Source of the DNA: Ignavibacteriota bacterium
Lineage (GTDB): Bacteria; Bacteroidota; Ignavibacteria; UBA10030; UBA6906
Reading direction: 5' to 3'
Length of the DNA: 58,307 bases
NCBI GenBank assembly: GCA_003158475.1
Contig: PMJR01000116.1
Span: 245 to 58,551, forward strand
Every line of letters starts with the position of its first letter. Within the stretch, counting starts at the first letter, position 1. The translations under genes and the position numbers were made by a program. The notes under the pieces were generated by a model. It was not told the origin of the DNA. It did no database searches and was given only the letters and a program-made list of their open reading frames with translations. Shown one piece after another: positions 27,888 through 52,093 of the stretch.

Positions 27888-27976
27888 GAATACCTTTCGT
27901 TCTGGGAGGGAGGAATCAGCGCATGAGGAGTGTATTGTACGACGTTCCGCCGCAAGATTCAAGGAACTCTCCCGGC

Positions 27977-29670: not shown

Positions 29671-30931
29671 GGAGGAGCCACCTCCTCTTCTCGAGTATCA
29701 CGTTCACTTCACGGTCGAGCGCCCTGAGGCCGTCTTCCACCGTGTACTGGTCCATCGTGATGAGTTCGGCGTACTCGCGCACTTTCTGTGCGATCTGTTC
29801 CCACTCGGGGACCTTCGGTGTCGCCCTGACATGGTTGAGCTGCAGGAAGAACGCGCCGGCGAACCTGTTGCCGGCAAGCGCCGGGTCCCGCCAGGTTTCC
29901 ACGCGCGCGGGGAGGTCCCCTGTCAGCCTGTAGAACTCGAGCTGCTGCTCAGGTTCCGAGAGGTATTCTATCAGGCTCCAGACGGCCGCCTTGTGCTTCG
30001 ACTGGCGGAACATCACGAGGCTCGATCCCCCGGCGAGCGACAGTCCGATGCCCCCATCCGGGCCGGGGAGCGGAGCCGTCATCCAGACCCCCTGAAGCGA
30101 GTCGGGGAGCCTGTTCATGAATTCCCCGATATACCAGGGGCCGGTGATATACATGGCGAAGAAACCTTCGGCGAACGCCTGGTACACGCTCACGATCTGC
30201 GCCGTCTTTACCGGTGCCCAGCCGTTCTTGAAGAATGTATAAAAGGCGTGCATGGCGGCGGTGAACTCCGGACCGCTGAAATCCCCCAGCGTGTTGTTTT
30301 CCTTCAGGAGGGAGGAGCCCTTCTGAAGCCCCAGTATCACCGGGGGGGCCCACTCGTTGTTTGTCGAAAAGAAGTTGGCGTAGCTCCCCGGAAACCGGCT
30401 CTGCATTTTCGCCGAACAATCGAACCACTCCTCCCATGATCCCGGCGGCTGTGCGTTCCCGGCCGCGGCAAGAAGGTCGGATCTGTAGAAGAGAACGCGC
30501 GTATCGACATACCAGGGAACACCGTACAGGAGCGAGTCCATGACATTGGTATCCCAGATCCCGGGGAAGTAGGAGGATTCGTGCACCGTTTTCGAGGCGG
30601 CGACCCACGGGGAGAGGTTGTCGATCGTGTTCAATGTCCTGAATTCCGGAATCCAGGTGTTCCCGATCTGGCACATATCGGGCAATGACTCCCCCGCGAA
30701 CGCCGTCAGGAGCTTTTCGTGCGCGGCATTCCATGGGATGATCTGGACCCTGACGTCAATATCGGGATGCCGCTTGTTGAAGGCCGGCATCAGCTTTGCC
30801 ACATGCTCCCCCTCCGCCCCCAGCGCCCAGAACGTGATACGGGTCCGGCCGTCCCCGGCGCCCGTACAGCCCGCGAACGCCGCAAGGAGCGGGAGTGTAA
30901 AGAAAAAAAGCCGGACCGGAGATCTGCTCAT
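29660..30931 (-). CDS. Sugar ABC transporter substrate-binding lipoprotein
   Basis: This 423-residue protein has a lipoprotein signal ending LLAAFAGC (Cys near residue 21). A family-1 extracellular solute-binding fold starts RITFWALGAEGEHVAKLMPAFNKRHPDIDVRVQIIPW and includes the SBP_bac_1 hinge-region pattern. It would capture oligosaccharides in the periplasm for the two permeases. ATG 30931 is chosen because the lipobox follows it directly and it overlaps the GH2 stop (ATGA); a longer in-frame reading would start inside the GH2 gene. Confidence 0.9.
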   Translation of the reverse strand: MSRSPVRLFFFTLPLLAAFAGCTGAGDGRTRITFWALGAEGEHVAKLMPAFNKRHPDIDVRVQIIPWNAAHEKLLTAFAGESLPDMCQIGNTWIPEFRTLNTIDNLSPWVAASKTVHESSYFPGIWDTNVMDSLLYGVPWYVDTRVLFYRSDLLAAAGNAQPPGSWEEWFDCSAKMQSRFPGSYANFFSTNNEWAPPVILGLQKGSSLLKENNTLGDFSGPEFTAAMHAFYTFFKNGWAPVKTAQIVSVYQAFAEGFFAMYITGPWYIGEFMNRLPDSLQGVWMTAPLPGPDGGIGLSLAGGSSLVMFRQSKHKAAVWSLIEYLSEPEQQLEFYRLTGDLPARVETWRDPALAGNRFAGAFFLQLNHVRATPKVPEWEQIAQKVREYAELITMDQYTVEDGLRALDREVNVILEKRRWLLHGR

Positions 30932-35426: not shown

Positions 35427-35430
35427 GGGC

Positions 35431-36840
35431 TCAGTGCTCCTCCAGCCAGCCGCCGGTGAAGCCGGCCCGCTCAAGTCCCCGGACGACGTACGGGTTCTTC
35501 TTCATGACATTCCAGACGAAGCCGTTGCGGAAGTTCTCTATCATAAGCACGAGCGGGCCCTGGTCGATCCCCAGATAGTCCCCGTCAAACCATCCACGGG
35601 GACCCGTCTCAGGAGTGAGATATGTCGGATTGAATGAATCGACAAATCCGCATTCCCTCCAGACGCGTTCGCCGAACCGATTTCTCATTCCCTTAAGGCA
35701 GGGAATCGCAATCTCCGGAGCAAAGGGGAGTGAACCCCCTGCGGCGGACGGAGAGAGCGTCCCGTCGTCGTTTGTCCAGTCGACAGATACACCGCGCGCA
35801 GCATACGATTGAAATACCCGCGTGATCCCCTCCACGGCGAACGAGGTATCACGAGGGCCGTCACAGGCCGAGAAGCCCCAGATCGAATCCGCATAATCAC
35901 GGTACCTGCGCGGGTTGGTCACTGCGTAAGCGCGCTGGGCATAGGTCGCACGACGGGAGTTCTCGAAATAGTCGATTCCTTTCGACCTCATGTATGCGTC
36001 CTGAATACCCCTGAAATCGATCCAACAATGCGGGAATTGATGGCCGAACAAGGGACCGAAGCTCACGAATTCCTCTCCTTCGAATTCGGCCCAGACATAC
36101 CTTGAGGTCCAGTGGTTCCAGACCGCCGGAGGAACAGGAAAGGTCGGAGAGCCCAGTGCGAGCAGATACAGGAGCATGGCCTCGTTGTAACCACGCCAGG
36201 TCATCCTGTGAAAGCCTGTCTCCGGCTCCCAGCCGAGGTGGATCCCTTCTTCATTTCCCATCGCCCACCGCCAATCGACGCGCCTGAAGAGGGAATCCGC
36301 CGCCATCCTTATTTCTTTCTCATCACCTGACCCGCGGTCGAAATACGACTGGCAGAACAGGACCCCGGCCATGAGGAGGGCCGTGTCCATCGTCGAGAGT
36401 TCGCAGTTCCACGTCCTGAGACCCGATTTCCTCCCCAGGAAATGGTAGAAGAAGCCGTGGTAACCCGTCGTGCCGGCTGATGCCGGCCCCTGCGGGAGCG
36501 CGATCAGCAGCCTGAGCGTTGAGAGCGTACGCCGCGCGGCTTCGCCTCGCGCAATCATGTTCCGTTCGGCGGCAACAGGATAGGCCGTCAGGGCGAACCC
36601 CATTGCACCGACGCTCGCGGGGGACTGCGACGGAAATCGGTCGGGTGTCAGCCCTGTGGCCGGATCAGTTGCGGTGAGGAAGAAAAGCAGCGTGCGCGAT
36701 TGCAGTGTATCCAGAAAGGGATCCCATGGGGGGAGGGGAACGCCGGAGGATCCTTCCCCTCGGCCCGCAGGTCCACCGCACCGGACGATCGGGAGGAGAA
36801 GAGCGAGAAGAAGAATTGTGATCAGAGGCCTCTTTATCAT
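35431..36840 (-). CDS. Glycoamylase-domain (PF10091, GH144-like) exported enzyme
   Basis: This 469-residue protein has a hydrophobic N-terminal signal followed by Cys (LLLPIVRCGG), so it may be a lipoprotein, though the lipobox is imperfect. The rest is one alpha/alpha-barrel domain with GTTGYHGFFYHFLGRKSGLRTWNCELSTMDTALLMAG, GWEPETGFHRMTWRGYNEAMLLYLLALGSP, FGHQFPHCWIDFRG and DGDYLGIDQGPLVLMIENFRNG. This pattern belongs to the Pfam Glycoamylase family, which includes the GH144 endo-beta-1,2-glucanases and sophorose-releasing enzymes. It is paralogous to the gene 28 bp upstream (36869-39343). Beta-1,2-glucanase activity is an inference. Confidence 0.78.
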   Translation of the reverse strand: MIKRPLITILLLALLLPIVRCGGPAGRGEGSSGVPLPPWDPFLDTLQSRTLLFFLTATDPATGLTPDRFPSQSPASVGAMGFALTAYPVAAERNMIARGEAARRTLSTLRLLIALPQGPASAGTTGYHGFFYHFLGRKSGLRTWNCELSTMDTALLMAGVLFCQSYFDRGSGDEKEIRMAADSLFRRVDWRWAMGNEEGIHLGWEPETGFHRMTWRGYNEAMLLYLLALGSPTFPVPPAVWNHWTSRYVWAEFEGEEFVSFGPLFGHQFPHCWIDFRGIQDAYMRSKGIDYFENSRRATYAQRAYAVTNPRRYRDYADSIWGFSACDGPRDTSFAVEGITRVFQSYAARGVSVDWTNDDGTLSPSAAGGSLPFAPEIAIPCLKGMRNRFGERVWRECGFVDSFNPTYLTPETGPRGWFDGDYLGIDQGPLVLMIENFRNGFVWNVMKKNPYVVRGLERAGFTGGWLEEH

Positions 36841-36868
36841 CCGTCAGTCTGTTCTTTGAGTCGCCGCG

Positions 36869-39343
36869 TCATTTGAGCAGAACGATCTTCCTGGCGCCGG
36901 TGAAACCCCCGGCAGTCATTCTGCAATAGTACACGCCGCTGGCAAAGGAATCCGCATGCCATTCGACCGTGTGATCGCCAGGCCCGAGAAAGCCTTCCAC
37001 GAGCGTTGCGACTTCCCGTCCCAGGACATCGTACACTTTCAATGTCGCATGCACAGGGACAGAGATGTGAAAACCGATGATTGTGGACGGATTGAACGGG
37101 TTGGGGAAATTCTGGAATAACGCCGGCCCCGCCAATATATTGGCGGAGGGCCGGACACTCGCCGTAACAGGCATGAAGCCGGCCCGCTCGAGGCCGAGCT
37201 GGATCACCGGGCTCTTCATAAACCTGTTCCAGACCGATTGCGTTCTGTAGTTCTCGACCATAAGCACAATCGGACCCTCATCGATTCCGATCTCATCCGG
37301 TCCCCACCATGACGCCTGCAGATTGAATGCATCGCGGAACCCATAAGGGCTCCAGATGCTTGTGCGGTACTGGGAGTACATGTACCTGAGTGCGGGGAGA
37401 GACACTTCGCTCGCGAAAGGGAGCGATCCGGCCGCGGCTGTGGGTGCGATCGTGCCGTCGTCGTTCTGTGCCGGCGGGGCCCCGCGGGCGGCGTAGCCGT
37501 TGGGAGGCGGACCGTCGCAGGCAGTCAATCCCCAGAGATTCTGGCCATAACTGGCGAAGTGCCCGGGGTTCGCGACACAGTACTGGCGCTGTGCAAGTGT
37601 CGCCCGTCGCGTGTTTTCGGCATACGTGATCCCCATCCCCCTCATGTACGCATCGGCAATATTTCTGAAATCCACCCAGCAATGTGAGTACTGGTGCCCG
37701 AACAGGGGGGGGAAACCGACGAATGTATAACCCGCATACGTCTCCTGCGTGTAGCCCGACACCCAGCTGTTCCAGACTGAGGCCGGAAGCTGACTGTTCA
37801 CCGCACCGAGGCCAAGGAGGTTGAGCACCATCCCTTCATTGTAGCCGATCCACCTCGCGGGTATGAAGCCCGATCCATGGTTGCCGGCAGCGTCCGGATA
37901 CCATCCCATTGTCAACGATGACCCGCCGTCCGTCATCCAGATCCAGTCCACACGATTGAATATCGAATCGGCCAGTGCCCGTATCCCTGTTTCGACCGAG
38001 TCTGTCTCCGTGAAGTATTGCCCGGCATCGAGAATTCCGGCAAGAAGGAGGCCGGTGTCAATCGAGGAGAGCTCAGTGTCCCCCGATCGGGTCGCGGTGT
38101 TCATATCGAGGAAATGGTAGAAAAAGCCCTTGTATCCCAGGACACCCGCCGAGGCACTGCTCTGTGGCCCGTGCCAGAACGTCCCCAGCGTCGCCAGGAC
38201 GCGCGCACGTCCTTCGAGGCGCGTGATCCACCCGTGATCGACGCCGATACAGATCGAACTGAGCCCGAAGCCGACCGAGGCGATGCTCGAAGCGGATGTG
38301 GAGGAGCTCCGGTCCTTTATCAGGCCGTTGTCGGGATTTGATTCGTACCAGAAGAAGTCGAATGATGCGTGCTCCAGAAAATCAAGAAAGTCATCATCCG
38401 TCGCGAACGCGTGAGGAACCACTGTCACGGTGTCGGAATTCGGGCTTTCCACCGAATTCGTATTTACCGCCCGAACCACGTACGAATATGCGGGTCCGTT
38501 CGTGACACCCAGAGCCGAAAAGCCCTGCGATGTCAGCGTTCCCACGCTGACCTTCGCATACGGGCCGGAAGGCGAATAGGCGCTGTACACCGCGTAGCCA
38601 AGCAGGTTAACGTCGCGGTTCCTGTCCCAGTGGAGCATGACACACTGATCGCCGGCATAAGCGACGAGACGTTGGACCGCCGATGGACGTGTCGTGTCCG
38701 GAGGTCCCGCGGCAATGATCCTGATATAATCGATCCACACCGTATGTACGGCGCTGTCAGCCGCTCCCTGGGCAAAGTTGATGTCCTTGAGAACCGCCAG
38801 GTTGAACCCGTTGTAGGGAGAGAATGCAGTGAGCGGGATGCTCACCCGTTGCCATGTCGTTGTGTCACCGTCAATCCCGGACGGAAGGTATTGCGCAAGA
38901 TTGACGGCATGCGCACTCAGATTGGCATTATCCTCGAGATCAGCCATGGGAAGCAGGGCGGCTGCGACAGGGGCGGGAGCGTTCACATAAAACACGACAC
39001 TGTCATAGCCGGCGGCGTTGCGCGGCGTCCAGGCCGGACTTGCCACGAAGATCCGCCACGCGCCCCCCGCAATAGATCTCCACTGCACCAGCCCGCTGTT
39101 CGCTCCGGAGTACGCCTGGCCATTCATAACAGGAAGCTTATCCCTCGGCATGTTCGGTCCTGCCAGCGTCAGCGAACTACTTCCGGATGAAAACCCGTAT
39201 GAGGCGTCATAGTAGGCTCCGCCCCCGGGATTCTCATCGAATATCACCAGGTCGGGTTTGGTCTGTCCGGTCGCCGGGGCGACTGAGCAGCAGAGGGCAA
39301 CCAACAGACATGATGCACGTGCGCGGCAGATCGTGAGTCGCAT
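36869..39343 (-). CDS. T9SS-secreted multidomain glycoamylase (PF10091, GH144-like) enzyme
   Basis: This 824-residue protein has a signal peptide (CLLVALCCSVAPATGQT). A CBM-like jelly roll (~30-190, ending VWIDYIRII), a fibronectin-III domain (~200-300) and a glycoamylase domain (~315-715) follow. The catalytic domain carries YKGFFYHFLDMNTATRSGDTELSSIDTGLLLAG, FGHQYSHCWVDFRN and PDEIGIDEGPIVLMVENYR, matching the smaller paralogue. The C-terminus is a type IX sorting domain (FQNFPNPFNPSTIIGF ... VYDVLGREVATLVEG ... SGVYYCRMTAGG ... IVLLK), so the enzyme is exported to the cell surface. It probably makes the first cuts in an extracellular polysaccharide; beta-1,2-glucan is the leading candidate from family membership. 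Confidence 0.82.
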   Translation of the reverse strand: MRLTICRARASCLLVALCCSVAPATGQTKPDLVIFDENPGGGAYYDASYGFSSGSSSLTLAGPNMPRDKLPVMNGQAYSGANSGLVQWRSIAGGAWRIFVASPAWTPRNAAGYDSVVFYVNAPAPVAAALLPMADLEDNANLSAHAVNLAQYLPSGIDGDTTTWQRVSIPLTAFSPYNGFNLAVLKDINFAQGAADSAVHTVWIDYIRIIAAGPPDTTRPSAVQRLVAYAGDQCVMLHWDRNRDVNLLGYAVYSAYSPSGPYAKVSVGTLTSQGFSALGVTNGPAYSYVVRAVNTNSVESPNSDTVTVVPHAFATDDDFLDFLEHASFDFFWYESNPDNGLIKDRSSSTSASSIASVGFGLSSICIGVDHGWITRLEGRARVLATLGTFWHGPQSSASAGVLGYKGFFYHFLDMNTATRSGDTELSSIDTGLLLAGILDAGQYFTETDSVETGIRALADSIFNRVDWIWMTDGGSSLTMGWYPDAAGNHGSGFIPARWIGYNEGMVLNLLGLGAVNSQLPASVWNSWVSGYTQETYAGYTFVGFPPLFGHQYSHCWVDFRNIADAYMRGMGITYAENTRRATLAQRQYCVANPGHFASYGQNLWGLTACDGPPPNGYAARGAPPAQNDDGTIAPTAAAGSLPFASEVSLPALRYMYSQYRTSIWSPYGFRDAFNLQASWWGPDEIGIDEGPIVLMVENYRTQSVWNRFMKSPVIQLGLERAGFMPVTASVRPSANILAGPALFQNFPNPFNPSTIIGFHISVPVHATLKVYDVLGREVATLVEGFLGPGDHTVEWHADSFASGVYYCRMTAGGFTGARKIVLLK

Positions 39344-39351: not shown

Positions 39352-41769
39352 TCAGGAGGATTTCACGTCTTTTCCCATAACCACTTCCACCCTATGCTCT
39401 GAGCCTGGCTGAAACACCGGAAGGAGCCTTGTGCCATCGCGGCAACGCCCGTCGTGCGGCTGGCCGTCGAGCAGGATCGAGGCCACGCCTGTCTGGACGC
39501 CCTGAGGGTTTCTGACGAGGATGTGATACACAGCACCGCGGAAGAGCCGGCGTACGCTGAACTGTTTCCAGTGGGGTGGAATGCACGGGTCGATTGCCAA
39601 CCCGTCGAATGCCGGGCGGACTCCGAGGATGTTTTCCACTCCGACCCGGAGGAGCCACGCAGCTGAACCGGTATACCAGGACCAGCCACCACGGCCGTAG
39701 AAGGCGGAGTCAGGTCCTTCGATATTTCCCGGAGTAACATATGGTTCAGCGCAGTACTCGTCGGGATGCATGCCCCGGCGGATCGGGTTGAGTCTCGAAT
39801 ACATCTCGAACGCCAGCGTGCCCCGCCGTAAAACCGACGCCGCAATTATCGCCCACGTCGCAGCGTGTGTATAGACCCCCCCGTTTTCCCTCGTGCCGGC
39901 CGCGTAGCGGGTCAGGTATCCGATGTACCTGTCAATCGTCCGGTACGCAGGATGGAGAAGCACCGGACCGGCCTTAAAGAGAAGCCTGCTCTCAACGGCG
40001 TCCATCACTTTTTCGGCCCTTCCGGGGTCTGCGACGCCGTTGATCACGGCCCAGGTCTGGGCATTGAGGAATATCTGCCCTTCTGTATTCTCATGACTGC
40101 CGATCTTCTCACCCGAATCCTTTGTCGCCCGGAAATACCACCCACCGTCCCATGCTTCCGTATTGAGCACGGTGCGGAGCCGGTCCGCTTTCTCCCGGTA
40201 AAGCGCCGCGCGGGGGTCATCCCTTTCCCGTTCCGCAACTCCGGCAAAGTCCTTCAGTATGCCGTAGAGAAAGTGCCCGAGCCAGACTGACTCTCCCTTC
40301 ATCTCAAGTCCGACGGCACTCAATCCGTCGTTCCAATCCCCCTGCCCGATCAGGGGAAGACCCCGGGCGCTGGAGCGACCGAGCGAGTGATCGATGGCAC
40401 GAGCCGCGTGATCGTACAGCGACGAAGAAGCATTCCCGTCGAGGAATGGTTCTTCAGATTGCAGGACGCCGAAATCCGCCGTCTCCCGGAGATAGTTCAT
40501 CAGCACGAACGGGAGCCAGAGGAGATTGTCGGAGATATTGTTGCGGAGGCCGATCTCCGAAATCGGATGCCACCAGTGGTAGACGGAGCCGTCCATGAAT
40601 TGGTGCCGTGCATGAAGCTGCAATTGCCGTTTGGTCTGTTCCGGATCGATCGGGAGGAATACCTGGCTGTCCTGAAGCTGATCGCGGAATCCGAATGCGC
40701 CGCCGGTCTGATAGTACGCAGTGCGAGCCCAGAGCCGGCCGGATATCGCCTGATATTTCAGCCAGACATTGGTCATGATGTCCATGGCCCTGTCCGGCGT
40801 GGAGACCTCGAGGGTTCCCAGAAGCGACTTCCAGCGGCGGCGGACTTCCTGAAATGCCGTTTCCACCCCCTTCGCGGAGCGGTATTTCCGGATGATCTCC
40901 TCCGCCTCGGATCGTGAATCGGCGGCACCGACAGTGAAGATCACAACGCTTTCTTCCCCGCCGTCCAGCGCCAGGTCGACAGCGAGGCTGCCGACCGGAT
41001 CGAGCCAATTCCCCGACCGCTTTCTGAGCTTGCCTTCCCTGACAGCCGCCGGCATACGCAGGCTTCCGTACATCCCGAGAAATGACTCCTTGTCCGTGTC
41101 AAACGCCACGGGCCTCCGGCTGCTCGAGTGGAAGGCGACGTAAGGCCATTCGGTATTCCAGTGGCCCCGGTCCCCCGGGACATCCCAGAGCCGTTTGGTC
41201 GCAAGAACCGCACGGAGGTCGGCGTCATACGCCGTCTCAATAAACGATTTGTGAAACTCGCGGTGCCAGTCGGGTGCCGCCCCGAGTCCCCACTCAAGAT
41301 ACGTGAAGAGCCGGAGCTTCCGGGAGTTCCGGCCCGTGTTCCTTACCTTCAGCCGCCAGAGCTCAACGGGTTCATCGTTGGGAACGAATATCAACAATTC
41401 AGTCTCAATCCCCCCGGTGCGGGAGCTGATGACGGTGTAACCGATGCCATGGCGGCATTCGTAGCGATCCGGTTTCCCGCACACGGGTTTCCAGCCCGCA
41501 GACCAGACGCGTCCCTTTTCATCCCGGATGTAAATGTACTTCCCCCACTCATCACGCACAAGGTCCTGTTCCCACCGTGTAATGCGATTAAGCTGGGCGT
41601 GGGTCCTCCAGCTATATCCGCTCCCCGTTTGCGACACAGTAACGCCGTAGTCGCCGTTGCTGATGACGTTGATCCAGGGTCGCGGGGTTTCGGGCGTGGT
41701 GATGATATACTCGGTTCCGTCCGGCGAGAAATACCCGTACTTTGTACGAAACTGGCCGGGTGATTTCAT
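39352..41769 (-). CDS. GH94-family glycoside phosphorylase
   Basis: This 805-residue cytoplasmic protein starts MKSPGQFRTKYGYFSPDGTEYIITTPETPRPWINVISNGDYG, very like cellobiose phosphorylases. It carries QGDWNDGLSAVGLEMKGESVWLG, where the Asp of GDWND is the catalytic acid of GH94, and YRTIDRYIGYLTRYAAGTRENGGVYTHAATWAI. GH94 enzymes cleave beta-glucosides with phosphate, giving a sugar 1-phosphate and saving ATP. The length matches cellobiose or chitobiose phosphorylases rather than the ~1100-residue sophoro-oligosaccharide enzymes. ATG 41769 fits the family N-terminus, although no Shine-Dalgarno is seen; longer in-frame readings run into the PorV-like gene. Confidence 0.85.
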   Translation of the reverse strand: MKSPGQFRTKYGYFSPDGTEYIITTPETPRPWINVISNGDYGVTVSQTGSGYSWRTHAQLNRITRWEQDLVRDEWGKYIYIRDEKGRVWSAGWKPVCGKPDRYECRHGIGYTVISSRTGGIETELLIFVPNDEPVELWRLKVRNTGRNSRKLRLFTYLEWGLGAAPDWHREFHKSFIETAYDADLRAVLATKRLWDVPGDRGHWNTEWPYVAFHSSSRRPVAFDTDKESFLGMYGSLRMPAAVREGKLRKRSGNWLDPVGSLAVDLALDGGEESVVIFTVGAADSRSEAEEIIRKYRSAKGVETAFQEVRRRWKSLLGTLEVSTPDRAMDIMTNVWLKYQAISGRLWARTAYYQTGGAFGFRDQLQDSQVFLPIDPEQTKRQLQLHARHQFMDGSVYHWWHPISEIGLRNNISDNLLWLPFVLMNYLRETADFGVLQSEEPFLDGNASSSLYDHAARAIDHSLGRSSARGLPLIGQGDWNDGLSAVGLEMKGESVWLGHFLYGILKDFAGVAERERDDPRAALYREKADRLRTVLNTEAWDGGWYFRATKDSGEKIGSHENTEGQIFLNAQTWAVINGVADPGRAEKVMDAVESRLLFKAGPVLLHPAYRTIDRYIGYLTRYAAGTRENGGVYTHAATWAIIAASVLRRGTLAFEMYSRLNPIRRGMHPDEYCAEPYVTPGNIEGPDSAFYGRGGWSWYTGSAAWLLRVGVENILGVRPAFDGLAIDPCIPPHWKQFSVRRLFRGAVYHILVRNPQGVQTGVASILLDGQPHDGRCRDGTRLLPVFQPGSEHRVEVVMGKDVKSS

Positions 41770-41801
41770 GCGGGGGAAGGATTTCAAGAACAGAGACCGG
41801 G

Positions 41802-42824
41802 TCAGAATGCAAATGCGAGCGTGACGCGCTGGACTCCGCCGAGCCTTCCGAAGGATGCCCAGGCGTAGTCGAGTCGGAGGTCGTAGCCGAGGCCGTCCCA
41901 CTGCACTCCTCCGCCGGCGGTCCACCCCACCTCGGAGTCCTTCAGGAACAGGCTCTGGTAGCCTGCGCGCAGGAAGAGAATTCTCTGGAAAGCCCATTCC
42001 GCCCCCATGTCCACGCTCTCCGCTTCGTCGCTCGGATGGAGGGCGTCAACGGCGAGCGTGACCGTATTGGCCCCGTCGAGGACGACGGGGTAGCCGAGGC
42101 CGACCCGAAACACGATAGGGAGCGTGAAGTAATCGGTGTTGAGCGTGGCAGGAAGCGTGCTGTTCGCCCCATAGCGTGTCGGATCCTCGTTGTAAGAGAC
42201 CCGCAAATCCGTCCCGTCGAACCGCCCCTTTGTACCGAAGTTAACGAGACTTGCGCCGATGCGGAGCCCGTCGGGGGAGAGCTGGTAGATTGTCCCGATG
42301 TTCACGCCGAAAACCGCCACCGAGCTGTGCCAGATCCTTTCGCTGACGTAGTTGACCTGTATGCCGAACGAGAACCTGTCGGTCACCGCCATCCCCCAAC
42401 CGAGGCCGATCAGGAGATCGCTGACATTGAACTGTTCCCCGGTGCCCAATGGCTGCTCCACCGTCGTGACCGGGATGTCGCCCGAGCTCAGATTTGTCAC
42501 CGCAAGAGCAGCGGTGCCGATCGAGCCGATGCGGACTGCTGCGATCGCATTGCTGACGGTGATGCCCGCCAGCCACTGGTTGTATGTAAACTGAAAGTCC
42601 GATTTTTCCAGCGCCCCCAGCGCTCCGGGGTTATAGAAAGCCGCCACAGCCTCGGCCGACGATGTCACGCCGGCACCTCCCATGGCAGCAGAGCGTGCTC
42701 CGGGATCAATCAGCGTGAACTGGCCGATCGTCGTCCCCGTTTTGGACTGCGCGTGGAGTCCTGCGGCCGCAAGACAGAGGAAGAGAACGAGACCCTTCAT
42801 GAGATTCTGAACCGGGGGCTTCAT
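41802..42824 (-). CDS. PorV/PorQ-family outer-membrane protein
   Basis: This 340-residue protein has a signal peptide (LVLFLCLAAAGLHAQ) followed by GQFTLIDPGARSAAMGGAGVTSSAEAVAAFYNPGAL, the hallmark opening of PorV/PorQ and FadL-like barrels. Alternating beta-strands continue to an aromatic C-terminal end (VTLAFAF). PorV carries T9SS substrates from the translocon to the attachment complex. Encoded next to a TonB receptor and T9SS cargo, this copy may be a locus-dedicated shuttle rather than the general PorV. The start overlaps the stop of the preceding gene by 4 nt. Confidence 0.75.
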   Translation of the reverse strand: MKPPVQNLMKGLVLFLCLAAAGLHAQSKTGTTIGQFTLIDPGARSAAMGGAGVTSSAEAVAAFYNPGALGALEKSDFQFTYNQWLAGITVSNAIAAVRIGSIGTAALAVTNLSSGDIPVTTVEQPLGTGEQFNVSDLLIGLGWGMAVTDRFSFGIQVNYVSERIWHSSVAVFGVNIGTIYQLSPDGLRIGASLVNFGTKGRFDGTDLRVSYNEDPTRYGANSTLPATLNTDYFTLPIVFRVGLGYPVVLDGANTVTLAVDALHPSDEAESVDMGAEWAFQRILFLRAGYQSLFLKDSEVGWTAGGGVQWDGLGYDLRLDYAWASFGRLGGVQRVTLAFAF

Positions 42825-45800
42825 TTTATGATCGCGAATTTTCCGACATATGAGTCGAAACCCACGGCTTCGACATGAAAAATGTAGAGCCCGGGCGCCA
42901 CATCGAGGTTGTCCTTCGTCCGGAGATCCCAGACCGCATATCCGCTCGTCGAGCCGTCCTGGCGGAGTGTCTGGACCAGATCGCCGCGGACGGTGTAGAT
43001 GCGCACTGTCGCATTGACAGGAAGGCCCCGGAATTCCATCCGGCGATCGCCGCGCCCCGTCGTCGCAAACTTCTGGGGCTCAAAGCTCGCGGCCCCGGCA
43101 TAGGGGTTCGGTACCACGTAGGGTGCGGTCCTGTACTGTTGCTTTGCGAGGCCGGGGTTGATCAACTGCCCCTTCGTCGTGAACGCGTACACGTCGTCAT
43201 TCGCCACCGGGCTCGTAATCCGTGCCGTGTACACGTCGCCCGGTGCCGGCGGAACAACGGACGATGCGGGGGTGGGTGTGTTGAATCTGACCCGCCATGT
43301 CGGCCAGGCATAGAATCGGGCGGTATCCCATGGGAAGTAGGAGTACACGTCAATCCATTCATCGGCAAGTGAGAGCGTGCTGTCCTTGCTCGCAACGTCT
43401 TCATGGAGCGCGCATTTCAGGGGAACGGGCCCCGACGGTGTGTTTGCGACGGCCCTAAACTTCACGGGGACAGAGGGGGCGCCGACAACAAAGAGCGAAG
43501 TGTCAATCGGGGTAGCGGAGAATGTCAGCGTGAAATCATAGGGATACCCCGGCCTTGAAACATCGATCGAGTCACGGCTGAGATTTGAAATCGTCAGCGG
43601 CGTATGCGCTGCGTTGCCGAGGGCGAATCCACTGTTCACAGAGTCGAACGAAGCGACATCCGGGGTCGAGACCACGGCGAGTATCCCGTCCCCCACAGGG
43701 CCGCGCCCCTCCCCGTGGAAGTCCGCCCCGAAGGAGTATACCGCTTTCCCGGAAAGGCTGTCGGCGAGCTCATACCTGACGGCGTGCCTGCGACCGGGCG
43801 ATGCTCCCGTGAAACGGAGCAGCAATGTCGTGTTATCGGGGACAGACTTCGAATCGAGTATCGTGAGGCCGATCGCGGCGCTCCCCGTCCCTGCGATGTG
43901 CCTCACCTGTGTCGCCGTGGCCTGCGTATAGCCGGGGACCGCCGGTTCAGGCCTGACGTCCACGACATTGACAGGGAGGACGGTCCCCCCCCGGAGCGTG
44001 CGGGAGACCGTTATCGCATTCTCAGAGGGAAAGAACCCGAGCGAGTCGTCGCCGTGGCCGTATGCACAGACCGCGTAGAAATACTCCTGGCCGTTCTTCA
44101 CCGTCGTGTCGGTGAACGAATGCATGAGACCCGAATCCGTCCCCAGCCAGTAGTGCACTCCCTCGATCTGTTGGTTGGAGAATCCCTTGATGCCGTTCAC
44201 AAGGTCGAACTGGGCCATGGGGACCCCGTTCCCGAACTTGTCTGTCCCGAGTGCGTTGGTTATCACCCGGGGATCACGGAATTCGGGATCTGTCGAGCGG
44301 TACACCCTGTAGCCTTCGAAGTCGTTCTTGCGTGTCACCGGGTCGATCCCCCGCTCCGAGACGTCCGTCCACATCACGCGGACATAGTGATCGCCGGTTT
44401 CAGCAGTCGCTGTCGGGATGGGGGGAGGGACGGCAAACTGGTAGTTCGCATTGTAAATCTGCTGGACTGTCCTGACCACTGTCTTCAGTTCGCTGAGATC
44501 GCCCCCGTAGGCCAGGGCGAGTGAGAATCTCTCGTGGTCGCCCGGGGGAAGCCGGAACGTGCCGGAGGCGAACAGAAAAGCGATGTTATAATTCAGAACG
44601 ACAGGCACGTCGAACCGGTTCGCCGGGACCGGATCGGTCCACTTCTGGTACAGGACGGGGGGCCATATGCCGAAGAAGACGATGGCATCGACAGGGTCCG
44701 CCGGAGAAGGGCCTTTGATCCTGTTCATCTGAAACCCCGTCAGACCAATCTGATCGGATTCATCCTTGTCCGTCTGATCAAAGTCCGGCTCGCCGGCTGT
44801 CGGGATGCCGTCTCCTTCACCCAGGTCGTGCGTCCCCGGAACGCCATCCGCTCCAAGATCGTCGTACGTGACATCCCAGTTCATGTTCTCGTCGCCGGTC
44901 CACCAGATCCCCTCCTTGAATGCGGGCCTGTTCTCCAGTTTCCCGTAGAATGCCTCGAAATTCGCCATGTTGTAGCGCGCGTTCACATAGGCGCGGATGT
45001 TGTCCTGTCCCACGATTTTCGTTCCCGGCCCGCTGTCGCGCCTCTCGTCCGTGATGCCGTCGCTGTCATTGTCGATGAGGTCGTAGGGATTGCCCGGCGT
45101 CTCCATATACGCATACCCCAGGTATCCGGTCGGTGCACACGTGCTCGTAAGATCCACGCCGTGTCCGTACTTGTCCCACGTATAAACAAGATTCAGGCCT
45201 GTCGAGCGGTCAAAAAAGGCGTTGTCGTCATCGGACTCCGCGACACCGTCGCACGAGATTGCCGAACCGCCGACTCCCGAGTCCATGTAGAGGCCGAAGA
45301 TGATGTTGTCATGGTAGTCTGTCGTCCCCTCGTTGGTAATATCATAGTGCCAGAAGATGACATTTGTCGCCTGCGGGTTCGCCCACTGGAAGCCCCGCAC
45401 CTCGACGCGGAGCCCGAGCCCGCGCCGCGTGGCATCGCGGGAGTCGGGGAAAAAATGATCCCACCTGTCGTAGTAATCATCATCCATCACGAAGAAGCTC
45501 TCCTGGTCGGCGTTCGGCCTCTTACCGAAATATCCGTTCCAGCTCCCGGGCCACCCCGGATCGTTGGGATCGTTCGCTTTGTCGGGCCAGCTTTCCGGCC
45601 AGGTCCTCGAGTCGCTGCTGATTGCAATAGAGCGCCCTCTGTTGATTGAAGGGTCCGCCTGGAAATAGCCGGGGCGCGGCTCAAAGCGCATGACTTTCCC
45701 GGAATGAGGGCTGTTGTCCTGCCGCTCGCGGTACCCTGTTTCCATGATGAATGCCGGCGAGACGCCATCCATGACGCTTGCAAGGACGAACGGGGTTATA

Positions 45801-46084
45801 CCGTCCGCGTAGTTGAGCCCGGAGCCTTTGGGCACCTCCACGGAATGAAAGACGGAGAGGTCGACGTGTATGGGATCGGGGGGATAGTCGCCGACCATCC
45901 CGTAATTCCAGAAGATTGTCCGGATATTCCCCGCATCGTGCGTCCCGGACCGTTCGGCGTCGTTGCTGCCGCGCTGACTCTTGGGGACAACCGGCTGCAG
46001 GGAATTTTGCGCCGGAGCCCGGAAGTGCGTCAGGCCCGCAAGCACGATGAGCGCGAGCAAACTTCGTATCTCTGTCTTCATCAT
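42821..46084 (-). CDS. Large exported protein with FlgD-like/T9SS-type C-terminus
   Basis: This 1087-residue protein has a signal peptide (LLALIVLAGLTHFRAPAQ). The body contains aromatic- and Asp-rich segments (WNGYFGKRPNADQESFFVMDDDYYDRWDHFF; DNDSDGITDERRDSGPG, calcium-binding-like) and an FN3-like part (YVRVMWTDVSERGIDPVTRKNDFEGYRVYRS). The tail (VVPNPYAGAASFE, ATVRIYTVRGDLVQTLR, LDVAPGLYIFHVEA, KFAIIK) resembles FlgD-Ig/type IX sorting domains. It is a surface or secreted protein of unknown binding function. Its position between a TonB receptor and a PorV-like gene suggests a three-part surface complex. ATG 46084 has GGGA 8 nt upstream. Confidence 0.75.
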   Translation of the reverse strand: MMKTEIRSLLALIVLAGLTHFRAPAQNSLQPVVPKSQRGSNDAERSGTHDAGNIRTIFWNYGMVGDYPPDPIHVDLSVFHSVEVPKGSGLNYADGITPFVLASVMDGVSPAFIMETGYRERQDNSPHSGKVMRFEPRPGYFQADPSINRGRSIAISSDSRTWPESWPDKANDPNDPGWPGSWNGYFGKRPNADQESFFVMDDDYYDRWDHFFPDSRDATRRGLGLRVEVRGFQWANPQATNVIFWHYDITNEGTTDYHDNIIFGLYMDSGVGGSAISCDGVAESDDDNAFFDRSTGLNLVYTWDKYGHGVDLTSTCAPTGYLGYAYMETPGNPYDLIDNDSDGITDERRDSGPGTKIVGQDNIRAYVNARYNMANFEAFYGKLENRPAFKEGIWWTGDENMNWDVTYDDLGADGVPGTHDLGEGDGIPTAGEPDFDQTDKDESDQIGLTGFQMNRIKGPSPADPVDAIVFFGIWPPVLYQKWTDPVPANRFDVPVVLNYNIAFLFASGTFRLPPGDHERFSLALAYGGDLSELKTVVRTVQQIYNANYQFAVPPPIPTATAETGDHYVRVMWTDVSERGIDPVTRKNDFEGYRVYRSTDPEFRDPRVITNALGTDKFGNGVPMAQFDLVNGIKGFSNQQIEGVHYWLGTDSGLMHSFTDTTVKNGQEYFYAVCAYGHGDDSLGFFPSENAITVSRTLRGGTVLPVNVVDVRPEPAVPGYTQATATQVRHIAGTGSAAIGLTILDSKSVPDNTTLLLRFTGASPGRRHAVRYELADSLSGKAVYSFGADFHGEGRGPVGDGILAVVSTPDVASFDSVNSGFALGNAAHTPLTISNLSRDSIDVSRPGYPYDFTLTFSATPIDTSLFVVGAPSVPVKFRAVANTPSGPVPLKCALHEDVASKDSTLSLADEWIDVYSYFPWDTARFYAWPTWRVRFNTPTPASSVVPPAPGDVYTARITSPVANDDVYAFTTKGQLINPGLAKQQYRTAPYVVPNPYAGAASFEPQKFATTGRGDRRMEFRGLPVNATVRIYTVRGDLVQTLRQDGSTSGYAVWDLRTKDNLDVAPGLYIFHVEAVGFDSYVGKFAIIK

Positions 46085-46116
46085 GGAATCATCCCGCTCT
46101 TGCTTCATCAAGGATG

Positions 46117-48792
46117 TTAGAACCTGATACCGACACCGGCCTCGACCCTCCTCGGGGGGGCGAAGCGGGAGGGATCCGCAAGCGCCTCCCTGTCCGCCGC
46201 CGGCGACGTCGAGTAGTACGGACTTCCCGTCGATGCAAATACGGAACCGTTGGCAAAGCGTTCATCCGTCAGATTCAGTGCGCGGGCGAACACCGTCAGC
46301 GTCACAGAGCCGATGTGGAAGTACTTCTCGGCTCTCACATCAAGAGAAGTCCACGCAGGCTTCACCGAAGAATTCGTCTCGAGCTGGGCGCCGAACGCCG
46401 AGTTCACCGCGGGGGTATACGGGCTGCCGCTCCCGTAGCGGAGGATCACCGTGATCGAAAGGTCGTCCTGCTGCAACCAGGATGCCGCGAGGTTGACGGT
46501 GTGGCGCTGGTCCCAGTCGAACGGCTCCACGCGGGGGCGTGCATCCTGGCCCGATGCAGCACGGGTTGCGGTCTCATTCGGGTCGCTGGAGTTTCCCACA
46601 GCATTCTCGTAGGTGTAGTTCAGGGAGAGGGAGAGAGAGGCACCGAACCGCTGGTCGAGCGAGAGCTTAACGCCGTTGACGGATCCGAAATCCACATTGG
46701 TGAATCTTGCGTATCGTGCGTCCGCGTAGGAATCGATGAATTCAACCCCGAGGAGGTCCCGGATGTCTTTGTAGAAGATGCTGACATCGATGCCGAGGGT
46801 CTGGCCGAATTGCTGCTTGAACCCGAACTCATACTGAACGGTGAATTCCGGTTTGATGTCCGGATTGCCCAGGACGCCGTACTGGTCTATCCCCGCCTGA
46901 AGGTTCCGGAGGACCGAATAGTCCGAATTGGAATAGAGGAATTGCATCTCCGGCATCTGGTAGAAATGTCCGTACGAGAAATAGAGCGCGCCGGTTGCCG
47001 TTACCGGGTACGACATGCCGAGCCGCGGGGCGAGGACGATCTTCTTCGTCGTCCGCTTGAGATACGAACCCGGCACGTTCCGGATTGCGTTCGCAGGGTT
47101 TTCCAGATTGCTCGGCACCGTCGAATTGGCATCGAAGTATTCCAGGCGAAGACCCGCCCGGATGAGAAAATCGAGGACCTCCACCCTGTCCTGGAGAAAC
47201 GCCGCAATCGTGATGGGATGGTATTCCCGGAAATCGGTGGCCAGAGTATCGGGAACGACACGGATTGTCGATTGCGTGCCGGAGACGATGTCGTACGCCA
47301 GCGCCGTCGGGGCCCCGAAGCCGAGCGCTGAGGACTGGGTTTCGATGCCGAACTTGAACAGATGCGCCTGCGACACCTGGCTCGTGACGGAGACTTTGAT
47401 GAGAACCGTGTTTGTTTTCTGCTCAAACCGTCCGATATCATATCCCTGTATGATCGCCCCCAGCTCATAGTTCGGATCGCTGCGCGGCGCGCCGGCTCCG
47501 GCGTAGGCAGGATCATACGCCGAGGGGAAAGCAAAATCAGTGTACTTGAAATAATTCTGCCTCAGACTGACGGTATAGAAGGTGTTGTCGGAAAGCGTAT
47601 GCGTCCAGTCGATGCCGTGCACGAGCGACAGCGTCTTCTGTGTTCGTATCCCGTCGGGGTCAAACCGGTAGTTGAAATCGTATCTGTGACCATCGACGAT
47701 CCCGCCGATCGCCTGGTAGCTGATCTGGACGTCCGGGAGGGAGCGGTTTGACACCTTGAGCTGTCCCGACCATTCGCGGTGATCGTTCATCGCCACCGCC
47801 GCATTGTCCCCCGTCGGCGCGAAGATCTTGTTGCTGAAATCCGTCGCATCGGCCGGCAGGAAACGGCGCTGGCCGTACAGATACCCGTCGTCCGTGAATC
47901 TTCTCGCGTTGACGAGGAACGTCGTTTTCGGTATTCCCGATGGGCCGCTGAGGGACACGGTATAGCTCTGCACATGCGGCGGAAACGCGGACTTCAGGTA
48001 GGGAAAACCGGTCGGACCCGAGCTGCCTGTCGCGTATTCTCCTCCATACGCCTCGGCGGTCGCTTCATAGCGTTCATCGGACCCGCTCCGGAGCACCGCG
48101 TTGACGACGCCGCTCATCGCCTGCCCGAACTCCGCGTCAAACGTCCCCGTGATCACCTGGACCTCCTGCAGGACGGATTTGTCGAGCTGGACGACCGAGG
48201 AGTTGTCATAGGGATTGTTGACCGAGACCCCGTCGACCTGATACTGCACCTCTCCGGCGCGTCCCCCGCGGAAATGCCCGTCGACGACGCCTGCCTGCAG
48301 GTTGACGAGGTCATTCAGGCTCTGGACCGGAAGGGCATTGATGTCGTCCTTGCCGAGGATGGCCACCGAACTGGTCTGGCGCGTATCGACAAGAGGCTTC
48401 TCGGCAACAGAGGTGACCTCCCCCATCGAAATCACCGATTCTGCAACTGTGACGTTCAGCGTCGTCGTCTGTCCGGCACTCAGGCGCACCTCCTTCACGA
48501 GGTTCGTCTGATAGCCGACCGCACTCACCCTTGCAGTGTAGTCCCCAACAGGAACGTTCAGAATCAGATAGTAGCCGTCCTCATTCGCCGCGGCGCCGAG
48601 TGTCGTGCCGACGATCTGCACGTTCGCCCCCAACACCGGCTGATTCTTCGCGTCGACGATCCGGCCGGTCAGTTTCCCTTTCGTGTCGGCGAAGGCGCCG
48701 GAGGATGCCGTCAGTGCGACGAGGCAGGTCATGAGCACCACCGGCTGGCGCGCATACCGCCCCGCATGATGGAGGAACCATGAAGACATCAT
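46117..48792 (-). CDS. TonB-dependent receptor with carboxypeptidase-regulatory domain
   Basis: This 891-residue outer-membrane protein has a signal peptide and a CarboxypepD-reg domain at about residues 40-125 (GKLTGRIVDAKNQPVLGANVQIVGTTLGAAANEDGYYLILNVPVGDYTARVSAVGY). The plug domain contains NALPVQSLNDLVNLQAGVVDGHFRGGRAGEVQYQVDGVSVNNPYD and GQAMSGVVNAVLRSG, and a 22-stranded barrel ends in an aromatic residue (EAGVGIRF). It would import glycans or other ligands using TonB energy. No SusD lipoprotein accompanies it, so it is not a SusCD pair. AGGA lies 6 nt before ATG 48792. Confidence 0.9.
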   Translation of the reverse strand: MMSSWFLHHAGRYARQPVVLMTCLVALTASSGAFADTKGKLTGRIVDAKNQPVLGANVQIVGTTLGAAANEDGYYLILNVPVGDYTARVSAVGYQTNLVKEVRLSAGQTTTLNVTVAESVISMGEVTSVAEKPLVDTRQTSSVAILGKDDINALPVQSLNDLVNLQAGVVDGHFRGGRAGEVQYQVDGVSVNNPYDNSSVVQLDKSVLQEVQVITGTFDAEFGQAMSGVVNAVLRSGSDERYEATAEAYGGEYATGSSGPTGFPYLKSAFPPHVQSYTVSLSGPSGIPKTTFLVNARRFTDDGYLYGQRRFLPADATDFSNKIFAPTGDNAAVAMNDHREWSGQLKVSNRSLPDVQISYQAIGGIVDGHRYDFNYRFDPDGIRTQKTLSLVHGIDWTHTLSDNTFYTVSLRQNYFKYTDFAFPSAYDPAYAGAGAPRSDPNYELGAIIQGYDIGRFEQKTNTVLIKVSVTSQVSQAHLFKFGIETQSSALGFGAPTALAYDIVSGTQSTIRVVPDTLATDFREYHPITIAAFLQDRVEVLDFLIRAGLRLEYFDANSTVPSNLENPANAIRNVPGSYLKRTTKKIVLAPRLGMSYPVTATGALYFSYGHFYQMPEMQFLYSNSDYSVLRNLQAGIDQYGVLGNPDIKPEFTVQYEFGFKQQFGQTLGIDVSIFYKDIRDLLGVEFIDSYADARYARFTNVDFGSVNGVKLSLDQRFGASLSLSLNYTYENAVGNSSDPNETATRAASGQDARPRVEPFDWDQRHTVNLAASWLQQDDLSITVILRYGSGSPYTPAVNSAFGAQLETNSSVKPAWTSLDVRAEKYFHIGSVTLTVFARALNLTDERFANGSVFASTGSPYYSTSPAADREALADPSRFAPPRRVEAGVGIRF

Positions 48793-48914
48793 GGAGAATC
48801 CTGAAGAAGATCGCACGTAGAATGAGGGGGGCTCTCGAGAGAGTGTGAATCACCAGGGAGCCTTTTACCGCTCTCCCGATCGCCCCGCCCCGTTACATGT
48901 ATGACGCACGAACC

Positions 48915-50789
48915 TTACTTGATCAGCACCATCGACTTGGCCGGCGAGAGGAGCTTCGCTCCCGTCGCGGAGGGCGTGAATTCAACCCTGTAATAGTAGA
49001 CGCCGCTGGCGAACCGCGTTGCATCGAACGTCTTCTCCTGCGTCCCGGAGCCCGTGACCGTGATGTCTGATGCGTCCAGAAGCTGTCCGAGGACGTTGTA
49101 GACATTGATATGGGCCAGACCCGGACCCGAGACGCTGAACTGGATTTTGGTCGAGGGGTTGAACGGGTTGGGATAGTTGCCAAGGAGCCTGAATTCGGCG
49201 GCGACATTCTGACCCGGCTGAGACGCAATGCCCGTGACCAGCGTCGAATTGTCCAGAACGGCAAATGCCGGCGTTGAAGCCCATGGCCATTCGCGGAAAA
49301 ACCAGGTACGGTACGCAGAGGTGTCGGTCGTGGTCAGGTCGTAGTCATGGTAGTTCAGCCCGATGGCCACGACTTTGTTTTGCTGGCCTGCCGGATAGCC
49401 GAGTTTCGTCAGGTCGAACGACGCCTCGATCTGGTAGCCCTGGCTCGGGGACCCGGCCGGAGTGTTGATCGTCGAGCCCGGCTTCAGATGCACGCCGTAG
49501 GCGATCGCACCGCGTGTGATCCAGAGTGGTGCATCCCATTGTGCCGAAGAACCGCCCTTGCTGACGCTGTCTATGGCAAAACCGAATCGATACCTTCCCA
49601 TGAAATGCACGTTCGGGTCCCGCAGAGAGTCAGACGGGATTGTCATGTTGACCTGCAAGGCGTCGAGCTTATCGTCGCCATTCGCAGAAACGAGGGATGC
49701 GTCGGTCACATCCGCGCCGACATACAGTATGTCTCCCTTGAAGAACATCTTGACCTTCGCAAGTCCCGCGTCGATCGGTGTCGCGGGACCGACGGGAACA
49801 AAGCCTCCACTCCGGTCGGGACCAATCGTCGGGTAGGCGCTCTTTATTGTGTTGTTCCCGAACTGAAGGCTGACAGACGGGACATGGTTCCAGACGTCTT
49901 CCGACATGTTGCCGTCGACTGTGGGCGCGGCATAACTGGCCGCGTTCGGTATCGTAAGATCATACCCGTACGCAGGGAGGACCGCCGTGTTGACATTGAC
50001 GTCGTTCCTCACAAGAATACGGCCTGCGCTCCCCTGGCCATCATTTCCCCATTCGTTCATAAACCAGGCTTTCATCCCAATCGCATTGGGGAGTTTCAGC
50101 CAGTCACCGTCCCATACACAGAATGTGGCCTGGATTGCATCAGTCGTCGCGGTGTTTGCGTTATACCCGAGACTGTCCAGTGAGACAGACATTTCGAAGA
50201 CATAGCCGGTATCCGCAACGATTTTTCCGGTGCCATCGGTGTCGCTGTTTGCAATCCCCTGAACCGTGTATGCCGCCTTCAGGATTCCGCGTGAGGGAAG
50301 GTCCCCCCCTTTGAGGTTCGGTCCCTGCCCCATGCCGCTCGAATCCACCCAGGAGATGAATATGTCCTTCTGCAGCGTTACGCCGCTGGCGGCACGCTGG
50401 TTCCGCTCGTAGATCCCGCCCAGCAGACCGTCGGAGTTTTCCCAGCCGTTCCCGCCGACCGAGCTGTCCTTCGCGATCATGGCGATGTACAGCATGTTCT
50501 TCGATTTGTCGGCCAGAAACTTGAACACCACGTTCGGACCGTCGGTGGTAGCACCGGTCCCGACTGTGGTCTTCCAACCGCTGGAAGGGTTCCCGTCCTT
50601 CACACCGTATTTCACGACGACTGACTCGGCTTTCGCCCAGACAGCTTCATTGAGAACACCATCGAGGGTCATTGTCGCACCGTTGATGTCGCGCGCCCAG
50701 ACATAATCCTTGCGCGGCTGAAACTGTGCGAAGGCGGCCGTTGCCACCAGGATCGTGGCAAGCAGCAACAATAGTCCACGTTTTTGCAT
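48915..50789 (-). CDS. T9SS-secreted protein with two CBM9-like domains
   Basis: This 624-residue protein has a signal peptide (LLLLLATILVATAAFAQ). Two similar sugar-binding-like domains follow, each opening with the CBM9-type pattern (MTLDGVLNEAVWAKAE near residue 40 and PTVDGNMSEDVWNHV near 300). These are followed by YIAMIAKDSS or YVGADVTDAS strands. The C-terminal ~85 residues are a type IX sorting domain (LLGNYPNPFNPSTKIQFSV ... VYNVLGQLLDAS ... SGVYYYRVEF ... SMVLIK). It is probably a surface glycan-binding protein. AGGAGG lies 6 nt before ATG 50789, one of the strongest ribosome sites in the window, suggesting high expression. It follows the LacI regulator directly. Confidence 0.8.
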   Translation of the reverse strand: MQKRGLLLLLATILVATAAFAQFQPRKDYVWARDINGATMTLDGVLNEAVWAKAESVVVKYGVKDGNPSSGWKTTVGTGATTDGPNVVFKFLADKSKNMLYIAMIAKDSSVGGNGWENSDGLLGGIYERNQRAASGVTLQKDIFISWVDSSGMGQGPNLKGGDLPSRGILKAAYTVQGIANSDTDGTGKIVADTGYVFEMSVSLDSLGYNANTATTDAIQATFCVWDGDWLKLPNAIGMKAWFMNEWGNDGQGSAGRILVRNDVNVNTAVLPAYGYDLTIPNAASYAAPTVDGNMSEDVWNHVPSVSLQFGNNTIKSAYPTIGPDRSGGFVPVGPATPIDAGLAKVKMFFKGDILYVGADVTDASLVSANGDDKLDALQVNMTIPSDSLRDPNVHFMGRYRFGFAIDSVSKGGSSAQWDAPLWITRGAIAYGVHLKPGSTINTPAGSPSQGYQIEASFDLTKLGYPAGQQNKVVAIGLNYHDYDLTTTDTSAYRTWFFREWPWASTPAFAVLDNSTLVTGIASQPGQNVAAEFRLLGNYPNPFNPSTKIQFSVSGPGLAHINVYNVLGQLLDASDITVTGSGTQEKTFDATRFASGVYYYRVEFTPSATGAKLLSPAKSMVLIK

Positions 50790-50844
50790 GACGAACCTCC
50801 TGCATGTTTTTGTGTAGTGTACGAGATGAATAGACCAGTGACTC

Positions 50845-50857
50845 TGGGACCGTCCCA
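50845..50857. repeat. 13-bp palindrome upstream of the CBM9-like gene
   Basis: TGGGAC, one central base, GTCCCA lies 56-68 nt upstream of the CBM9-like start, inside the 172-bp gap after the LacI gene. It touches a second inverted repeat at 50856-50875. It may be part of a leader-RNA structure or a protein site. Confidence 0.4.
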
Positions 50858-50875
50858 TGCCCGGCTGCGGGCATG
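50856..50875. repeat. Inverted repeat able to form a 7-bp hairpin in the leader
   Basis: CATGCCC (50856-50862), a 6-nt loop and GGGCATG (50869-50875) form a perfect stem. It overlaps the neighbouring 13-bp palindrome by two bases, so the two structures could compete in RNA. There is no U-tract after it, so simple termination is unlikely. Confidence 0.4.
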
Positions 50876-52002: not shown

Positions 52003-52018
52003 ATGTAAACGTTTACAT
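52003..52018. promoter_or_regulatory. LacI-family operator O2 (perfect 16-bp palindrome)
   Basis: ATGTAAACGTTTACAT is perfectly symmetric with a central CG, the normal form of a LacI/GalR-family site (compare TGTAAnCGnTTACA). It lies 37-52 nt upstream of the regulator's start. Its centre is 43 bp from that of O1, about four helical turns, a spacing that allows two dimers on the same face or a short loop. Confidence 0.85.
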
Positions 52019-52045
52019 GCAGAACGAAAAAAAAGAACGCGGAGC

Positions 52046-52061
52046 ATGTAAGCGCTTACAT
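52046..52061. promoter_or_regulatory. LacI-family operator O1 (perfect 16-bp palindrome)
   Basis: ATGTAAGCGCTTACAT differs from O2 only at the symmetric pair beside the centre. It begins 3 bp downstream of the -10 hexamer, over the expected transcription start, so bound repressor would block initiation. Confidence 0.85.
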
Positions 52062-52064
52062 ACG

Positions 52065-52093
52065 AGTATAGGGAAGTGAGGACAATTTGTCAA
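52065..52093 (-). promoter_or_regulatory. Near-consensus promoter of the LacI gene and sugar locus
   Basis: On the minus strand TTGACA (52093-52088), a 17-bp spacer and TATACT (52070-52065) form a sigma-70-like promoter. The -35 hexamer is perfect and the -10 matches TATAAT at 5 of 6 positions. This is more like the E. coli consensus than the TAnnTTTG type described in Bacteroides. O1 follows directly. Confidence 0.75.

Follow-up and report, generated by a model that had tools for sequence, protein, structure and literature searches.

LacI-family regulons with tandem operators, as collected in RegPrecise, are the described systems closest to the locus in this study, and in the account given there share with it an even palindrome with a central CG, autoregulation, a single sugar locus and a two-site leader (PMC4052901). 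A second relevant group is that of the repressor roadblocks, where a repressor bound downstream of the start (LacI, PurR, GalR, CcpA or CodY) stops the elongating polymerase, with release described mainly via Mfd (PMC4132739; PMC10310618). For the lac repressor, the RNA end of the stalled complex has been placed 3–4 nt before the 22-bp operator, which corresponds to 14–15 nt before the operator centre (PMC4499122). Bacterial intrinsic termination, as summarised in work on RNA polymerase I, takes place ∼8 nt after the hairpin base (PMC12366685).

The window, meaning here the whole stretch of 58,307 nt that was analysed, carries two perfect 16-mer palindromes, O1 and O2, upstream of the gene for a LacI-family regulator, P0001 (Table 1). 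The two differ at the inner symmetric pair only and lie 43 bp apart from centre to centre, exactly as the original prediction had it. Read along the minus strand, TTGACA is followed by 17 bp, TATACT, O1, a T8 run and O2, with the start codon of the regulator at 51966, downstream of O2. The predicted transcription start, at about 52057–52059, falls inside O1, in agreement with the earlier placement of O1 over the start region of a TTGACA-17-TATACT promoter.

Table 1. Elements of the control region and genes of the cluster behind it, in minus-strand order (positions in the window).
Feature	Position	Strand	Remarks
-35 hexamer TTGACA	52088..52093	-	Motif scan; conserved in ortholog upstream regions
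-10 hexamer TATACT	52065..52070	-	Motif scan
Operator O1 ATGTAAGCGCTTACAT	52046..52061	.	Over predicted transcription start; conserved 5' of orthologs
T8 run (U8 in transcript)	52027..52034	-	Ends 8 nt before O2
Operator O2 ATGTAAACGTTTACAT	52003..52018	.	Within regulator-gene leader
LacI-family regulator P0001, 334 aa	50962..51966	-	First cluster gene; Pfam LacI 2.9e-17, Peripla_BP_3 6.4e-38
Secreted CBM9-like protein, T9SS sorting tail	48915..50858	-	Second gene
TonB-dependent receptor	46117..48816	-	
1096-aa protein	42821..46111	-	No Pfam match; conserved in relatives' loci
PorV-like outer-membrane protein	41802..42824	-	
GH94 phosphorylase	39352..41997	-	Top PDB hits: cyclic beta-1,2-glucan synthases
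Two PF10091 proteins	35431..39343	-	Nearest XcSGL (GH144 beta-1,2-glucanase)
Remaining same-strand cluster	18909..35474	-	633-aa protein, GH2, ABC binding protein and two permeases, two GH3, ROK kinase, GH42, 2-hydroxyacid dehydrogenase

Besides O1 and O2, the window contains no match to TGTAARCGYTTACA with fewer than three mismatches. Across the whole genome (3.745 Mb in 153 contigs, an assembly 97.85% complete) the two operators were the sole matches at 0–1 mismatch, two mismatches were reached at nine other places, and a reversed-motif control gave no match to the exact motif. The pair is thus not a chance occurrence, and the earlier remark that the sugar locus holds no further copy can be extended to the genome, within the limits of this assembly.

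P0001 possesses an N-terminal HTH domain (PF00356) and a sugar-binding core (PF13377), both above cut-off, and its operators have the even palindrome, the central CG and the position beside their own gene by which LacI-family operators are defined (PMC4052901). The nearest named regulator, at 93%, is found in an Ignavibacteriae MAG. NCBIfam equivalog scores fall far below the cut-offs for CcpA, PurR and RbsR, and P0001 is none of these. Regulator orthologs (E ≤ 1e-60) were sought in 98 genomes of the order, with 41 carrying the regulator, 40 carrying an exact TGTAANCGNTTACA, 36 both, five the regulator only and four the motif only. The exact motif is thus present in 36/41 genomes with the regulator and 4/57 without it (Fisher p 6e-17), at one to three copies in each motif-bearing genome, mostly next to the regulator. 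A site with at most one mismatch was found in 56 of 61 distinct ortholog upstream regions, these being loci of 45% identity or more that have 100 bp or more of upstream sequence and are unique in their last 120 bp; orthologs truncated at a contig end and the more distant LacI proteins (most of L058–L085), the latter mostly lacking the motif, lie outside this set. The orthologs listed retain S(I/V/T)ATVSR as a stretch of the recognition helix. Co-occurrence and conservation support the view that the sites are operators of the adjoining regulator and act locally, and on comparative grounds the pair is very probably real, local, conserved and autoregulatory.

Some variation was observed among the relatives. 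In a clade with the hinge sequence RGLIM or RGLIL (L030, L034, L037, L039 and L042), CC/GG replaces CG at the operator centre; L030, L034 and L037 have two CC/GG sites 58–60 bp apart that are mutual reverse complements or nearly so, and L039 and L042 have one CG site and one GG site upstream. Operators only 14–15 bp apart, overlapping or abutting, occur in L017, L020, L021 and L027 and in genomes G049, G051 and G052, in place of the distant pair or in addition to it.

The promoter agrees with the consensus at 11/12 positions and is the best promoter-like site within 34–53.7 kb of the window. TTGACN-17-TANNNT is present in 37 of the 61 upstream regions (shuffle mean 0.23), and in 26 of these 37 O1 shares exactly 2 bases with the -10 box. 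The original prediction regarded an E. coli-like promoter as unusual for Bacteroidota, which was not borne out: a search of 21 genomes from the lineage gave 46 occurrences of TTGACA-17-TATAAT and eight of the reversed control, two of the 46 (in G004 and G059) being the operator control region itself. The Bacteroides-type motif occurs 651 times over these 21 genomes, with 515 for its reversed control, and in the window's family it is not enriched (128 against 115 in 13 genomes). The Bacteroides sigma-ABfr consensus is reported as TTTG at -33 and TAnnTTTG at -7 (PMC7366714), and the window promoter has TTGACA-17-TATACT instead. Judged by these motif counts, the promoter is strong but not exotic, and the locus illustrates that promoters of the E. 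coli-like type appear normal in the ignavibacterial lineage.

Headed by the regulator, the same-strand glucan cluster extends for ∼33 kb, reaching 18909 (minus strand). Its PF10091 proteins match XcSGL (XCC2207) with E values of 3e-150 and 7e-102, and XcSGL is described as a GH144 enzyme acting on beta-1,2-glucan (PMC12102758). Since the GH94 phosphorylase also finds its best PDB matches among cyclic beta-1,2-glucan synthases, the likeliest inducer is a beta-1,2-gluco-oligosaccharide, probably one such as sophorose. Related loci keep the order lacI, CBM9/T9SS, TonB, 1096-aa protein, PorV and GH94 or GH144, an order shared by Rhodothermota and partly by Neomarinimicrobiota. The loci of Gemmatimonadota and Acidobacteriota retain lacI with GH144, and in several cases the importer too. 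The locus defines a one-locus regulon for the use of a glucan, most likely beta-1,2-glucan, in a lineage with few cultured members.

Three further features of the region were noted. The ABC sugar importer (27977–31132, minus strand) has a binding protein and two permeases, with no ATPase gene in the cluster. The 1096-aa protein has a T9SS-like C-terminus and is located between the TonB receptor and the PorV-like protein in most related loci, with counterparts at L012, L014, L016, L017, L019, L022, L034, L049, L053, L058 and L060. It could be a substrate-binding partner in the role of SusD; its AlphaFold model has a mean pLDDT of 55, too poor to judge this role. Outside the cluster, the N- and C-terminal domains of an aconitase lie in two overlapping ORFs in different frames (54197–56004, minus strand), which may reflect a pair of subunits, a misassigned start or a frameshift.

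The original prediction also held that one control region may govern the regulator and, by read-through, the 30 kb behind it. The local control stood, and for read-through into the genes behind the regulator, which may extend over the full 33 kb, the support is indirect. The first two gaps (50859–50961 and 48817–48914, minus strand) contain no terminator-like site, and in three genomes the operator pair is found at the operon head or what appears to be it. In G068, where the order is complete, the pair precedes the CBM9/T9SS gene and lacI comes second; in G069 this order is divided between two contigs; and in G079 the pair stands at a contig end ahead of the first part of a CBM9/T9SS gene, with lacI after such a gene on another contig. 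Roseithermus has one site downstream of lacI, in front of the CBM9 gene. From these arrangements, the pair seems to track the head of the operon and not lacI.

What had been overlooked earlier is the T8 run before O2 and, in relatives, a hairpin terminator. The length of the run and its distance to O2 are identical in the four genus members examined. An A/T run lies in most O1–O2 spacers of relatives, with hairpins just before it: a hairpin of at least 5 pairs and ≤ -3.5 kcal with T ≥ 5 was found inside the spacer of 12 of the 29 leaders that have two operators (dinucleotide shuffles over 200 rounds gave a mean of 0.65 and a maximum of 4), and in none of the 31 leaders whose site is single or whose two sites lie close together (p 3.7e-5). 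The 29 leaders are phylogenetically dependent, four coming from the window's genus and three from g50, so the stated probabilities are too optimistic. In these 12 relatives a GC-containing hairpin stands directly before the U-run, as in an intrinsic terminator, and a terminator scan independently lists the element in all three leaders tried (L014, L007 and L009). The other 17 leaders, G068 and G069 among them, have no hairpin. In the window, there is a weak 5-pair hairpin (-3.9 kcal, z -0.26) where the terminator scan lists none, and its genus mates L006, L011 and L025 gave 0.0 on the stretches folded, so that the weak hairpin is not kept.

The spacing of these elements is more regular toward O2 than toward O1. 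Among the 19 leaders with T ≥ 5, the run ends 8 nt (eight leaders) or 10 nt (eight leaders) before O2 in 16, with a standard deviation of 1.4 nt for the distance to O2 and 8.1 for that from O1. The hairpin base lies 14–16 nt from O2 in 11 of 12 leaders and 21 in L095. Stem sequences differ between genera whilst the pairing is kept; in one gap-free set of five sequences, 34/35 cells pair and 2/7 pairs have changed on both sides, a result equalled by 29/500 shuffles. Of 391 class genomes, nine contain the strict pattern O1-N20-50-T5-N6-16-O2, each time upstream of an ortholog and with zero control matches; the window's genus has a shorter spacer and lies outside it. In a regulator tree of 52 chosen sequences, built by a quick method and with weak deep branches, the hairpin requires at least seven changes, and the window's genus is nested among hairpin bearers, which makes loss of the hairpin the likelier reading for this genus.

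A looser pattern matched in only 8 of 395 phylum genomes, giving no clear sign of wider use by other LacI-type regulators: G070 and G083 have the same system, four belong to family f43, G536 looks like chance, and G095 is ambiguous. In the f43 loci (L164, L165, L166 and L167), a different LacI-type pair, TGAAAGCGCTTACA and TGTAAGCGCTTTCA, flanks a T6–T8 run, with no clear hairpin by eye, and the gene downstream encodes an outer-membrane protein of TonB type.

The T8 run 8 nt before O2, together with the hairpin of relatives, suggests that O2 does more than repeat O1. We propose that an autoregulated, local LacI-family repressor would use O1 and O2 as the single control region of a ∼33 kb glucan-utilisation operon, in two stages. 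Without inducer, a repressor dimer on O1 would cover the -10/+1 region and prevent initiation; a polymerase that leaked past would meet a second dimer on O2 ∼45 nt downstream, placed such that the RNA 3' end of the stalled polymerase lies at the end of the U-run. In many relatives, a terminator hairpin directly upstream of the U-run would then release the stalled complex, making a roadblock-coupled terminator. Inducer would free both operators and let polymerase pass through lacI into the cluster. In the window's genus, where the T8–O2 geometry is kept with no convincing hairpin, the second stage would amount to a roadblock met where the U-rich hybrid is weak.

Sequence comparison shows the parts, how they are conserved and spaced, and the local regulon; repressor binding, the inducer, read-through and, above all, the second stage are what we infer. 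With the LacI and E. coli geometry assumed, the predicted stall at O2 lies 7–10 nt beyond the hairpin base in 11 of the 12 hairpin leaders, and in the window 1–2 nt past the U8 run. The second stage is proposed because this predicted stall coincides with the site of bacterial intrinsic termination. Against it, stalling by the lac repressor is reported to have given only slow termination, in that case for Pol I (PMC12366685). The whole two-stage explanation, with O1 blocking initiation and O2 stalling leaked polymerase at the U-run, is put forward tentatively, at just under an even chance. An operator–U-run or terminator–operator leader working by a definite mechanism, its termination step conjectural, deserves a similarly guarded assessment, at best approaching even and perhaps somewhat below.

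The alternative that survives best is a plain double operator, with O1 and O2 acting as independent or cooperative sites of one repressor, whether through higher occupancy, a roadblock or a short loop, and the T-run and hairpins incidental or an aid to bending. Tandem LacI-family sites are reported to precede ∼20% of regulated operons, at preferred helical spacings (PMC4052901), the O1–O2 spacings lean to multiples of 10.5 bp across 27 lineages (R 0.37, p about 0.02), and a convincing hairpin is missing from the window. Counting distinct spacings only weakens the helical signal (p 0.14), and phasing was dropped as support for this reason; moreover, the hairpin and T-run occur far above shuffles, the run is locked to O2 and not to O1, and hairpins that vary in sequence between lineages retain their pairing. 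This variation also led to rejection of the hairpin as a DNA-protein site. A double operator and nothing further is a real contender, with roughly one chance in three.

Alternatively, the hairpin and U-run could form a constitutive attenuator that always damps a strong promoter, or answers some other signal, with O2 adjoining it by chance. The hairpins do resemble ordinary intrinsic terminators and lie downstream of near-perfect promoters. A fixed distance between T-run and O2 would, however, be unneeded in such a device, the hairpin-T element is missing from all 31 leaders that lack a distant O2, and the window's genus retains the T8–O2 distance without a convincing hairpin, which leaves the attenuator improbable.

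LacI has a C-terminal tetramerisation tail, and a Lac-type DNA loop would have one tetramer holding both operators with the T8/A8 tract as a bend at the midpoint. The tract in the window does lie nearly midway (52027–52034, midpoint 52032), but P0001 stops at residue 334, right after a sugar-binding core whose match (Peripla_BP_3) ends at residue 330, with no tetramerisation tail. The midpoint bend, moreover, is confined to the window's genus; elsewhere the tract lies off centre, its position tied to that of O2, and a loop is very unlikely. Catabolite control by a CcpA-like global regulator on cre-type boxes, which the operator motif resembles, scarcely merits consideration even with CcpA structures among the close PDB matches, as P0001 scores 196.9 bits against the ccpA model TIGR01481 (cut-off 442.35) and the genome has two 0–1-mismatch sites linked to one locus in 3.745 Mb, not many cre sites.

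Returning to the two-stage proposal, its relation to the described systems lies in spacing, in the means of release and in the order of parts. The intersite peaks in the RegPrecise survey are at 13, 22 and 32 bp, whereas 39–66 bp dominate here, and the U-run or terminator between the sites is a feature of this locus, the main text of the survey being free of the words terminator, roadblock and attenuat- (PMC4052901). In the literature searched, which lay mostly outside subscription journals, no earlier report of an operator–terminator–operator arrangement or a repressor-gated terminator was found. Unlike in the known repressor roadblocks, the predicted stall point in this leader falls at a U-run, which in relatives is joined by a hairpin. 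One of the roadblock papers suggests that polymerase stalled near a promoter may escape Mfd, with sigma70 being retained (PMC4132739); this would give the design a rationale, since release would then come from the hairpin and U-run built into the leader. If the second stage is true, a single repressor would govern initiation and termination with fixed geometry in a device that occurs naturally in bacteria, and roadblock-coupled termination would be testable on a short DNA fragment.

The Pol I terminators (Reb1/Nsi1/TTF1) have the same order of hairpin, T-rich run and roadblock ∼15 bp downstream, and are described as eukaryotic, constitutive and located at gene ends, with deep backtracking and a hairpin 20 nt away (PMC12366685). 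The leader in this study is by comparison bacterial, inducible and at a gene start, with 7–10 nt separating the hairpin and the predicted stall in 11 of 12 cases. It is possible, though somewhat more doubtful than the mechanism as a whole, that these leaders are a conserved bacterial switch in which the repressor occludes the promoter and then, at O2, makes a leaky intrinsic terminator efficient, that is, a repressor-gated terminator convergent with the RNA polymerase I roadblock terminators, the parallel being one of analogy and not kinship.
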